In this document: positions 1-2,767 of the stretch, piece after piece
How positions within the stretch are numbered: the stretch's first letter is position 1
Layout: each line of letters opens with the position of its first letter
From: Thermophilibacter mediterraneus
GTDB lineage: Bacteria; Actinomycetota; Coriobacteriia; Coriobacteriales; Atopobiaceae
Assembly: GCF_900119385.1 (NCBI RefSeq)
Contig: NZ_FPKO01000009.1
Location: 581,405-645,404, forward strand
Length of the DNA stretch: 64,000 bases
Direction: 5' to 3'
Made by a program: the position numbers and the translations under genes
The notes under the pieces: generated by a model
Seen by the model: only the letters and a program-made list of their open reading frames with translations
What the model was told of the DNA's origin: nothing
Databases searched by the model: none

Positions 1-1124
1 AGCTCCGCCATGTAGCTCATGGCGTCCGGGGGGACCTCCCCCGAGAGCGCGGGCACGTCCTCGCGCTCGGCGTCCTCGCGCATGCGCTCGCAGAAGGCCT
101 CGATGAGCCTGAGCTTGAGCTCGTAGCTTGGAACCTGCACGGGGGTGGTGAAACCGGAGCCCAGGCGGCTCGTCACGCGCTCGTCGAAGCCGTCCTTGCC
201 GAGGCCGAGCTGGGCCGGGGTGCGGTCCGCCGCGAGCACGATCTGCTTGCCGTTTCCGATGAGCTCGTTGAAGGTGTCGAAGAAGAACCCCACCGTTCCG
301 ACCTTGCCGACCATCTTCTGGATGTCGTCGATGATGAGGACGTCGATGTCCGCGTAGTTCTGGCGCAGCACCGAGGCAGCTGAGCGCTCGCTGTGCCGCA
401 TGGCCTCGGTGTAGTCGGTGATGAAGCTCGAGGCGTCGCGATAGACGCAGAGGCGAGACGGGTCGTTCCGAGCGATGTAGTTCTGGATCGCCCGCAGGAG
501 GTGGGTTTTGCCCAGCCCGCTCTTCCCGTAGATGAACAGGGGGTTGTACGTGCTGTTCATGCCGTTTGCGACCTGAAGCGCGGCCTGGTAGGCGATGTCG
601 TTCTCCTCGCCGCGCACGAATCGCTCGAAGGTGAGCTTCGAGGTGGCGTCCGAGATGTCCTCGACGAGGGGGTTCCTCGCCCTTCGCCTCCGGGCCTCCT
701 CCTCGCGCGCCTCCTCGGTGCGCCGCTCGTCCCAGGTGTCCTCGACGATGCTCCGGGGCACCCGCGCCGCCGCGGTGCCGTCGCCCGTCTCCGCGGTCCA
801 GGCGGCCACCTCCGCGCGCGACATGCTCGACCGAGCGGGCGTAGGTGCGCTCGCCTCGCCCGCCGGGGCGAAGGAGACCTCGAGCCGCATGGGCTCGAAG
901 GCAGCCTGGGTGAGGCACGTCTCGACCGCGGCGGCGTTCTTCGACACCGTCTTGAGCACGAGCCGCATGGGGGTCGTGACCCTGAGCACGCCCCCGTCCA
1001 TGCTGACGGGCGTGCAGTTGCGCAGCATGGCGAGGACCGACTCGGGGAGCCCCTGCTGGGCGGCGAGAAGGTCGAGCGTGTCCTGCCACAGCGCCTCGGC
1101 GTCAGATTCGAGTGATAGTTCCAT
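1..1124 (-). CDS. dnaA: Chromosomal replication initiator DnaA (3' end cut by window)
   Basis: This gene encodes the AAA+ initiator that binds DnaA boxes at oriC and melts the origin. Translating the minus strand from the ATG at 1124 gives about 374 residues: an N-terminal domain, a short charged linker, then the ATPase with Walker A FIYGKSGLGKTHLL and Walker B VLIIDDIQ. The C-terminal DNA-binding domain lies outside the window. The start MELSLESDAE is preceded by an untranslated region with two DnaA-box-like 9-mers, which suggests autoregulation. It is transcribed away from the origin in the same direction as the HATPase gene upstream of it, 65 bases apart. Identity is certain; only the 3' part is missing. 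Confidence 0.95.
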   Translation of the reverse strand, partial: MELSLESDAEALWQDTLDLLAAQQGLPESVLAMLRNCTPVSMDGGVLRVTTPMRLVLKTVSKNAAAVETCLTQAAFEPMRLEVSFAPAGEASAPTPARSSMSRAEVAAWTAETGDGTAAARVPRSIVEDTWDERRTEEAREEEARRRRARNPLVEDISDATSKLTFERFVRGEENDIAYQAALQVANGMNSTYNPLFIYGKSGLGKTHLLRAIQNYIARNDPSRLCVYRDASSFITDYTEAMRHSERSAASVLRQNYADIDVLIIDDIQKMVGKVGTVGFFFDTFNELIGNGKQIVLAADRTPAQLGLGKDGFDERVTSRLGSGFTTPVQVPSYELKLRLIEAFCERMREDAEREDVPALSGEVPPDAMSYMAE

Positions 1125-1141
1125 GAGTCCGCATTCTCGAT

Positions 1142-1184
1142 TGTTGAAAACAGCGTCTCTCAGTATAGCGATGATTGTTGATAA
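1142..1184 (-). promoter_or_regulatory. Two DnaA-box-like 9-mers in the dnaA leader
   Basis: Read on the minus strand, TTTTCAACA (1142-1150) and TTATCAACA (1176-1184) match the DnaA box consensus TTATCCACA at 7 and 8 of 9 positions. They lie between the HATPase stop and the dnaA start, where DnaA autoregulation sites are usually found. Binding is inferred. Confidence 0.6.
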
Positions 1185-1189
1185 CTGAC

Positions 1190-2308
1190 CTAGAGGTGTC
1201 TTCCGAGGGCGCGGCCGTATTCGGTGAGTTGATACTTCTGTCCTCCCTTGCGCACCGCCCCCTGCGACGAGAGCGCGGAGAGGGTCCTCGACCACGTCGC
1301 CGCCGAGGAGCCAAAGGCCTGCACGAGGTCGGTCGGCCCCGCGGACCCGCGCTCGGAGAGCAGGGAGAGCGCCTGCCTGCCGCGGTCGTCGAGCGAGGCG
1401 GCCACCTGGGCGGCGAGCTCCTCTGCCGCGGACGCCGCCGGAGGGGCCTGCAGGGGCGCCGCCTGCGCCTGGGGCCACCCCTGCTGCGGCAGCGGGCCCG
1501 TCCCGGGCGCGACCTGCGACGGCCAGGGGGACGCGCCCTGCACCGTCCCGGGCGCGACCTGCGACGGCCAGGGGGACGCGGCCTGCGTCCCGTAGGGCTG
1601 CGGGACCGCCTGCGACCAGGGCTGCTGGGGTTGGGGGGAGAAGGGCTGCGGCCACCCCCATGCCGCCTGGGTCTGGGCGCCGACCTGGTTCCAGCCCCAC
1701 GCCTGGGGACTCGGGACCCCGACCGGGACCTGAGGCTCTTGCTGCTGAGCGATGTTGGCGACGTCGCGGGCCCCCTCGGCGGGCTGGGTCGAGATCGTCA
1801 CGACGGTGCCGCCCGAGATGTTGTCCTCTATCTCGAGGCTTCCTCCCTTGTCGACCATGTACTGCTGGGCGTATGGCAGCCCCGAGCCCACCCCGCGGAT
1901 GTAGTGGCGCATCTCCTCCGTCGCCGAGGTCGTTCCGTACTCGAGCGCGCGGTCCTTCTCGCGGATGCCCGGCCCCTGGTCGGAGAAGCGAATGGTGTTT
2001 CCGCCGTCGAGGATCGTGATCGTGGGCGCCTGGAAGTACGCGTGGACGAAGTTCTCGACGACCTCGCGTATCACCATGAACGGAATGGTGCCCCCCTGCT
2101 CGCGGGCGAGCCTGGTGACCGTTGCCGTGACCTCCTCGAGGAAGCCGCGGACGTCGCGGGGCTCAATCACCACGACGCGCGGAGCCGCCGCCGCGTCGTC
2201 GTAGACGGCTATGCGCGCGGGATTGGTGACCTCGAGCGCCCCTGTGCCGCCCGTCCCCTCCCCACCCGTGGGGTCATCCTCGACAAAGGGGTAGAAGTCC
2301 CGCGCCAT
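1190..2308 (-). CDS. HATPase-fold ATP-binding protein with C-terminal winged helix, beside dnaA
   Basis: The function is not recognised. The 372-residue product has a GHKL/HATPase domain at about residues 50-175: N-box REVVENF with N86, G1 box DQGPGI at 110-115 and G2 box GVGSGL at 139-144. There is no HisKA dimerisation/phosphoacceptor region, no receiver and no membrane segment, so it is closer to cytoplasmic anti-sigma or serine-kinase-like ATPases than to a sensor kinase. A Gln/Pro/Trp-rich low-complexity linker (about 175-295) follows, then a winged-helix-like C-terminus (about 295-372). It lies between oriC and dnaA and points the same way as dnaA, so the two could be cotranscribed. A role in initiation control or dnaA transcription is inference from position. 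Confidence 0.75.
   Translation of the reverse strand: MARDFYPFVEDDPTGGEGTGGTGALEVTNPARIAVYDDAAAAPRVVVIEPRDVRGFLEEVTATVTRLAREQGGTIPFMVIREVVENFVHAYFQAPTITILDGGNTIRFSDQGPGIREKDRALEYGTTSATEEMRHYIRGVGSGLPYAQQYMVDKGGSLEIEDNISGGTVVTISTQPAEGARDVANIAQQQEPQVPVGVPSPQAWGWNQVGAQTQAAWGWPQPFSPQPQQPWSQAVPQPYGTQAASPWPSQVAPGTVQGASPWPSQVAPGTGPLPQQGWPQAQAAPLQAPPAASAAEELAAQVAASLDDRGRQALSLLSERGSAGPTDLVQAFGSSAATWSRTLSALSSQGAVRKGGQKYQLTEYGRALGRHL
1500..1580. repeat. In-frame 45-bp-period direct repeat in the HATPase linker
   Basis: A 36-base segment at 1500-1535 recurs exactly at 1545-1580, giving a 45-base period that keeps frame. In protein it duplicates the motif SPWPSQVAPGT inside the Gln/Pro-rich linker. The copy number could vary by slippage. 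Confidence 0.85.
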
Positions 2309-2551
2309 TGCTGCCCACTTTCAACATTCGATGAACACGTGTCGAAAACTTTTCAGTGAGAATCCGATATGGATGAACGATTTCAACAAGCGACAAAAAC
2401 TTGTCGAAAACTGCGGATATCAGGCTGAAACCCGTGGAAAGAGCATACCATTGCGGCGTTATCTTTCATCCATATGCAAGGATGGATTCTTTCGTGTGCA
2501 AGATTCCACAGGCGTGGAACCATCTGGTAATTCGATTCTTTTGAGAAGAAT
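2309..2551. other. oriC: Probable chromosomal replication origin (oriC)
   Basis: This AT-rich gap lies between the dnaA-side operon and rpmH, and transcription diverges from it. It carries DnaA-box-like 9-mers in both orientations: CTTTCAACA 2318-2326, ATTTCAACA 2380-2388, TTTTCGACA on the minus strand at 2340-2348 and 2402-2410, CTTTCCACG on the minus strand at 2433-2441, GATTCCACA 2502-2510 and GGTTCCACG on the minus strand at 2514-2522. None is a perfect TTATCCACA. The gene order dnaA/oriC/rpmH-rnpA is the standard origin layout. The rpmH promoter closes the region on the right. Confidence 0.8.
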
Positions 2552-2581
2552 TTGACAGGTAATCCGCAAGACCTTTACAAT
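2552..2581 (+). promoter_or_regulatory. Promoter of the rpmH operon
   Basis: TTGACA at 2552-2557 and TACAAT at 2576-2581 are separated by 18 bases, a near-consensus housekeeping promoter, about 50 bases before the rpmH start. Confidence 0.7.
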
Positions 2582-2632
2582 CTCTGAGCTATTTGCAGGT
2601 GATGTCTATACCCACAACCGGGAGGAATAGCT

Positions 2633-2767
2633 ATGAAGCGCACCTACCAGCCCAACAAGCGCAAGCGCGCCACCACGCACGGCTTCCGTGCCCGCATGGC
2701 CACCAAGGGCGGCCGCGCCGTCCTGGCCCGTCGTCGTGCCAAGGGCCGCAAGCGTCTCACCGTCTAG
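2633..2767 (+). CDS. rpmH: 50S ribosomal protein L34
   Basis: The 44-residue basic protein begins [20 protein letters not shown] and ends GRKRLTV, the typical L34 length and sequence. It is a small rRNA-binding protein of the large subunit. A GGGAGG ribosome site lies at about 2620-2625. It starts the rpmH-rnpA-yidD-yidC block and follows a clear promoter, next to oriC as in most bacteria. Confidence 0.97.

Follow-up and report, generated by a model that had tools for sequence, protein, structure and literature searches.

A single-copy gene that directly precedes dnaA in deep branches of the Actinomycetota encodes a protein composed of a GHKL ATPase domain and a winged helix, and is regarded here as a strong candidate for a hitherto unstudied way of controlling chromosome replication. 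It was analysed in a window of 64,000 nucleotides from Thermophilibacter mediterraneus, whose genome gave one match to the protein. Our judgement is evenly poised on the reading that the protein binds DNA and regulates the dnaA operon or oriC, which best explains the combination of an ATP site with a general base, a winged helix, a tether between both and the place before dnaA. The features concerned are the following:

1..1124, minus strand: 5' part of dnaA (519 aa in all), the next gene downstream, 65 bp from the gene
1125..1189, minus strand: 65-bp gap separating the gene from dnaA; contains two DnaA-box-like 9-mers
1190..2308, minus strand: gene of the GHKL-winged-helix protein, 372 aa, ATG start, open reading frame intact
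1199..1393, minus strand: winged helix, about aa 306-370 (modelled with confidence by AF2; structure matches; profile)
1394..1783, minus strand: Pro/Gln/Ala-rich linker of variable length (alignment of relatives, AF2 model)
1784..2221, minus strand: GHKL ATPase domain, about aa 30-175 (Pfam HATPase_c, AF2 models, alignment with 3lmm_C)
2309..2632, no strand assigned: putative oriC and operon leader, 324 bp, with DnaA-box-like 9-mers
2633..2767, plus strand: rpmH, the divergent neighbour

The protein belongs to the GHKL ATPase superfamily and has N, G1 and G2 boxes, as the preliminary description of this DNA had stated; they are set in a Bergerat fold. HATPase_c was its Pfam match above cut-off (E 5.2e-9; 37 bits, where 26.4 are required), and the boxes read E82xxxN86xxH89 (N), D110xG112xG114 (G1) and G139xG141xG143 (G2). 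Residues N86, H89, D110, G112, G114, G139, G143 and G167 are invariant in 167 of 167 relatives, G141 is glycine in 166, P113 is kept in 165 and E82 is glutamate in 163 (Q in three, S in one). Among 40 members chosen across the phylum E82, N86, H89, D110, G112, P113 and G114 do not vary, nor do G139, G143, G156, G167 and L346. The E-x-x-x-N spacing is presumably that of the general-base Glu in ATPases of the GyrB/MutL/SpoIIAB type, and judged by these residues the ATP site is intact, probable general base included; the protein is predicted to bind ATP. Neither HisKA, the phosphoacceptor domain that marks a histidine kinase beside HATPase_c, nor a receiver domain appeared in a Pfam search of the protein up to E 1, HisKA and HisKA_3 were absent among the best 25 Pfam families for the 40 members, and no hydrophobic segment was seen by eye in the 372 residues; the claims that HisKA, receiver and membrane regions are lacking thus held. 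A search of NCBIfam gave nothing near any cut-off, and no model of the whole protein was found in Pfam or NCBIfam.

The Gln- and Pro-rich linker noticed earlier was borne out as a Pro/Gln/Ala-rich segment (Pro 17%, Ala 16%, Gln 12% over all members), the length of which ranges from 12 to 240 residues among the 167 relatives with a median of 40. The C-terminus, described before as winged-helix-like, has a winged-helix fold: it was predicted by AF2 at a pLDDT of about 86-98, aligned with MarR, RosR, TubR and Csa3 at Z 11-12, and its profile, to which 16 of the 167 relatives had themselves contributed the sequences, matched 167 of 167. Weaker traces of this fold were sub-threshold HTH models at aa 308-369 in the Pfam search of the protein, weak Pfam matches at E 0.1 to HTH families of transcription factors, namely IclR (34 of 40 members), TrmB (28 of 40) and MarR (21 of 40), and weak winged-helix matches to CRISPR-type regulators in PADLOC. 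The full AF2 model displays the GHKL domain and the confident winged helix at a mean pLDDT of 69 and a pTM of 0.47, which are low because of the N-terminus, the lid and the linker: the roughly 30 residues before the GHKL domain are mostly of low confidence (residues 1-22 under pLDDT 50), as are the lid region at about 114-141 and the linker. AF2 models were built from 17 and 15 class sequences only.

Relatives were sought with a profile of the N-domain at E 1e-10 in a class sample and a phylum sample of 396 genomes each, drawn evenly from larger groups. They were present in 341 of the 396 Coriobacteriia and in 156 of the 396 Actinomycetota, 38 of the latter within the class and therefore 118 of 358 outside it, with one match in each genome among the matches listed. 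A restriction of the gene to Coriobacteriia was rejected on these numbers. Gene order was read in 167 genomes (120 of the 341 class matches and 47 of the 118 matches outside the class), and in 157 of these dnaA follows directly downstream on the same strand, at a gap of -111 to 296 with a median of 41, approximate values as dnaA starts were extrapolated from a profile. Many of the gaps lie near or below zero, which suggests overlap or translational coupling with dnaA in those loci. Nine genomes have a contig end behind the gene: eight (G434, G575, G613, G467, G468, G004, G060, G249) carry dnaA at the start of that contig, as a circular chromosome would give, and the ninth (G648) yields no placement of dnaA. 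Contig-end cases included, 165 of 167 copies directly precede dnaA, so that the search for homologs proposed in the preliminary description found them beside dnaA, not scattered, and reaching beyond Coriobacteriia. The association with dnaA is kept in many deep branches of the actinobacteria and runs deeper than the preliminary description had supposed. A local inversion was observed in G189 (L238/L258), where the gene lies ahead of rpmH and the intergenic region of the origin is shared with a dnaA that is divergent from it.

Seventeen further loci taken from genome contigs, some of them from the same genomes as the 167, all place the gene before dnaA, and the 16 with rpmH in view share one gene order; as 96 of 437 columns are also invariant in the alignment of 17 class members, this conservation is not due to chance. 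Over 108 loci the distances measured for the protein are correlated with those for DnaA (r 0.65, reached by 0 of 999 permutations), which is consistent with largely vertical inheritance of the gene. An origin from mobile elements was tried and rejected, tblastn having returned no match in 72,556 plasmid and 50,697 phage records.

In the window, the gene was correctly placed between the putative oriC and dnaA and immediately upstream of the latter in the same orientation, both genes being on the minus strand and 65 bp apart. DnaA-box-like 9-mers in the gap are TTATCAACA at 1176-1184 and TTTTCAACA at 1142-1150, and in the putative oriC, just before the gene, TTTTCGACA occurs at 2402-2410 and 2340-2348 on the minus strand; all these calls use the consensus of the DnaA box. 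By eye, the TTTTCGACA boxes have inverted partners 13 bp away, at 2380-2388 and 2318-2326 on the plus strand, a pairing that many relatives show as well. Enrichment of 7-mers in the regions from rpmH to the gene was measured against Markov-sampled sequence, the class being divided into four groups of 21, 11, 14 and 20 regions and 41 loci outside it forming a fifth, and words of the DnaA box were among the most enriched in five of five groups. No operator emerged from this enrichment, the enriched leader words being those of the DnaA box and of the rpmH side. An imperfect inverted repeat, CTTTC...TGAAA, was seen by eye between the two box pairs in family f1, for which no operator function is claimed. 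A simple scan of positions 1000-2800 revealed no promoter- or terminator-like site on the strand of the gene, hence co-transcription of the gene with dnaA is plausible. Ahead of rpmH lies a sigma-70-like promoter with 11 of 12 matches (2552-2581, plus strand).

A further observation concerns DnaA itself. In the family of the window, Atopobiaceae, its recognition helix mostly reads GGRSH (DnaA at L115:6970-8529), as against R-D-H in most other lineages compared, and the origin boxes of this family vary at position 6, with TTTTCNACA in place of TTTTCCACA. Helix and boxes have possibly co-evolved in specificity; against a simple link between them, family f3 has R-D-H and yet also TTTTCAACA boxes.

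The 55 class genomes without a match to the gene were searched with the DnaA of the window at E 1e-20. A DnaA match was also missing in 42 of them (26 of 30 and 16 of 25), where the locus is probably absent from the assemblies. In three of the other 13 (G384, G145, G095) the locus is cut at a contig edge, and in ten (G161, G226, G329, G008, G011, G020, G029, G061, G131, G139) dnaA lies behind rpmH, which is divergent, and the gene is missing. Among the 240 genomes of the phylum sample without a match, 30 from outside the class were examined; dnaA was present in 29, and no credible relative was found at these 29 dnaA loci, the absence in at least two of them (G431 and G410), whose contigs begin at or just before dnaA, being read from the whole-genome search only. 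With dnaA present and the gene absent in these ten and 29 genomes, the gene is not universally required and is dispensable in some lineages. A weak profile match beside dnaA in G398 (1.3e-4) was dismissed, as it belongs to an unrelated repressor; the gene in question (L211:2006-2683), outside the class, encodes an iron-dependent repressor of the DtxR type and is divergent from dnaA.

A comparison of two congeners, G161 (L197) and G196 (L262), revealed an in-place deletion of the core of the gene in the former, a natural knock-out. Alignment of the two gave 94% over 1,839 bp towards rpmH and 87% over 2,819 bp towards dnaA, whereas the origin side together with the 5' end of the gene reached 77% over 799 bp. 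What is left in G161 resembles residues 1-81 of the open frame in G196 (57% identity). The gene can therefore be lost while dnaA and the DNA of the origin side persist.

Since gene order near oriC is conserved for reasons of dosage as well, linkage alone does not prove a role in replication. The soberest rival holds that the protein regulates another regulon, takes no part in replication and has remained before dnaA through the inertia of an ancient operon and through dosage close to the origin. Other neighbours are indeed conserved too, rpmH lying divergently upstream in 137 of the 167 loci, and dnaA and the rpmH side are kept in some of the lineages without the gene. However, the gene was never met apart from dnaA or its leader in the 167 loci, bar the contig-end case G648, and even the inverted copy of G189 borders the leader, for which reasons we consider this explanation unlikely.

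A second rival follows from the nearest structural and sequence families. The model of the GHKL domain (mean pLDDT 68) aligned first with DIP2311 of Corynebacterium diphtheriae (3lmm_C; Z 12.9, 169 residues aligned, rmsd 4.0, 16% identity) and next with SpoIIAB (Z 8.0), followed by histidine kinases, PDK and BCKDK at Z 7.4-7.8, a level which is common according to the tool. Ranked by Foldseek E-values for the full model, BCKDK and PDK2 came first and 3lmm fourth, and when PDB chains were searched with the sequence profile of the 40 members, sporulation kinase B (3e-10), BCKDK (1e-7) and CheA headed the matches, of which the best 60 did not include 3lmm. These similarities leave room for a Ser/Thr kinase or a partner switch in the manner of RsbW, RsbT and SpoIIAB, which would phosphorylate or sequester a partner, perhaps DnaA, a sigma factor or a STAS protein, with the winged helix as a targeting or protein-binding module. 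Like those kinases the protein has a GHKL ATP site without HisKA, and SpoIIAB is second in the structural alignment; its NCBIfam model weakly matches 34 of the 40 members at E 0.1, the protein kinases BCKDK and PDK lead the Foldseek ranking, STAS proteins occur in seven of the eight genomes tested, and E82 stands where such kinases have their catalytic Glu. On the other hand, DIP2311 aligns much better than SpoIIAB, a winged helix and a linker are additional to the kinase fold and the former is kept in every member, Pfam HATPase_c_2 matches only six of the 40, and G004, a complete genome with the gene, gives no STAS match. In the curated SpoIIAB family TIGR01925 the protein of the window scored 12.5 bits against a cut-off of 135 and is not a member. 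The structural alignment, the universal winged helix and G004 together disfavour a kinase or partner switch, which appears rather improbable, and thereby weaken the serine-kinase or anti-sigma alternative raised in the preliminary description.

That the protein is a functionless histidine kinase, orphaned or decayed, is extremely improbable: HATPase_c is the best Pfam match and many weak histidine-kinase matches turned up in the PDB profile search and in NCBIfam, but HisKA is lacking, on which ground a histidine kinase was rejected, and ATP-site residues near-invariant over the phylum in a strongly conserved protein rule out an inactive remnant.

DIP2311, a protein of the COG2865 kind with the order AlbA_2, GHKL and winged helix, is closest by structural alignment of the GHKL domain and presumably also shares a winged helix behind it. 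An N-terminal AlbA_2 domain is the defining feature of COG2865-type regulators. The protein studied here gave no Pfam match to this Schlafen-type domain, has only about 30 residues ahead of its GHKL domain, precedes dnaA and is low in sequence identity; it therefore appears to resemble the GHKL-winged-helix part of the DIP2311 family in modelled fold and not in membership.

For the preferred reading, in which a protein gated by nucleotide regulates the dnaA operon, oriC or both, the following course is proposed. Binding of ATP would close the lid of the GHKL domain and drive dimerisation, which would set two tethered winged helices onto the DNA of oriC or of the dnaA-operon leader; the bound protein could then tune transcription of dnaA, assembly of the orisome, or both, and initiation would thereby follow the nucleotide state of the cell. 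ATP binding, DNA binding and target are here predicted from sequence and model. Of the link between nucleotide state and initiation or dnaA expression suggested earlier, which we likewise infer, the attachment to dnaA and the intact ATP site stood up, whereas no binding site or partner was found and the ten class genomes with a readable locus and no gene speak against it. More tentatively, and with some doubt on our part, the protein could be an old regulator of initiation in Actinomycetota: a clamp on oriC, formed by a GHKL domain that ATP gates and by tethered winged helices, which reads the nucleotide state and controls the supply of DnaA or assembly of the orisome. Many other lineages of the phylum lack it, through loss or because they never had it, and within Coriobacteriia it has apparently been lost on more than one occasion. 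If true, this would be a class of initiation regulator unlike SeqA, DiaA, SirA or MtrA.

A literature search covering titles and abstract openings, with few subscription journals, yielded no paper describing the gene. Regulators of the GHKL-winged-helix kind are already known; the position before dnaA and the phylogenetic depth were not found described. To our knowledge, little is known of the control of initiation outside a few model bacteria, and a single-copy gene before dnaA across deep Actinomycetota offers a concrete candidate link between energy state and replication that can be tested directly, natural deletions being available for comparison. Olsenella, Atopobium and their kin are bacteria of the human mouth and gut, and hence the gene is of concern there as well.

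Among known regulators, MtrA and PrpR are not known to be GHKL proteins or to be encoded before dnaA; DiaA, HobA and SirA bind domain I of DnaA and are not known to be GHKL-winged-helix proteins. MtrA and PrpR are DNA-binding proteins controlling dnaA in Mycobacterium, MtrA acting also on oriC (PMC3982210), and thus an actinobacterial precedent for such control; DiaA, HobA and SirA are regulators of initiation restricted to certain taxa (PMC13270200), as the protein before dnaA would be.
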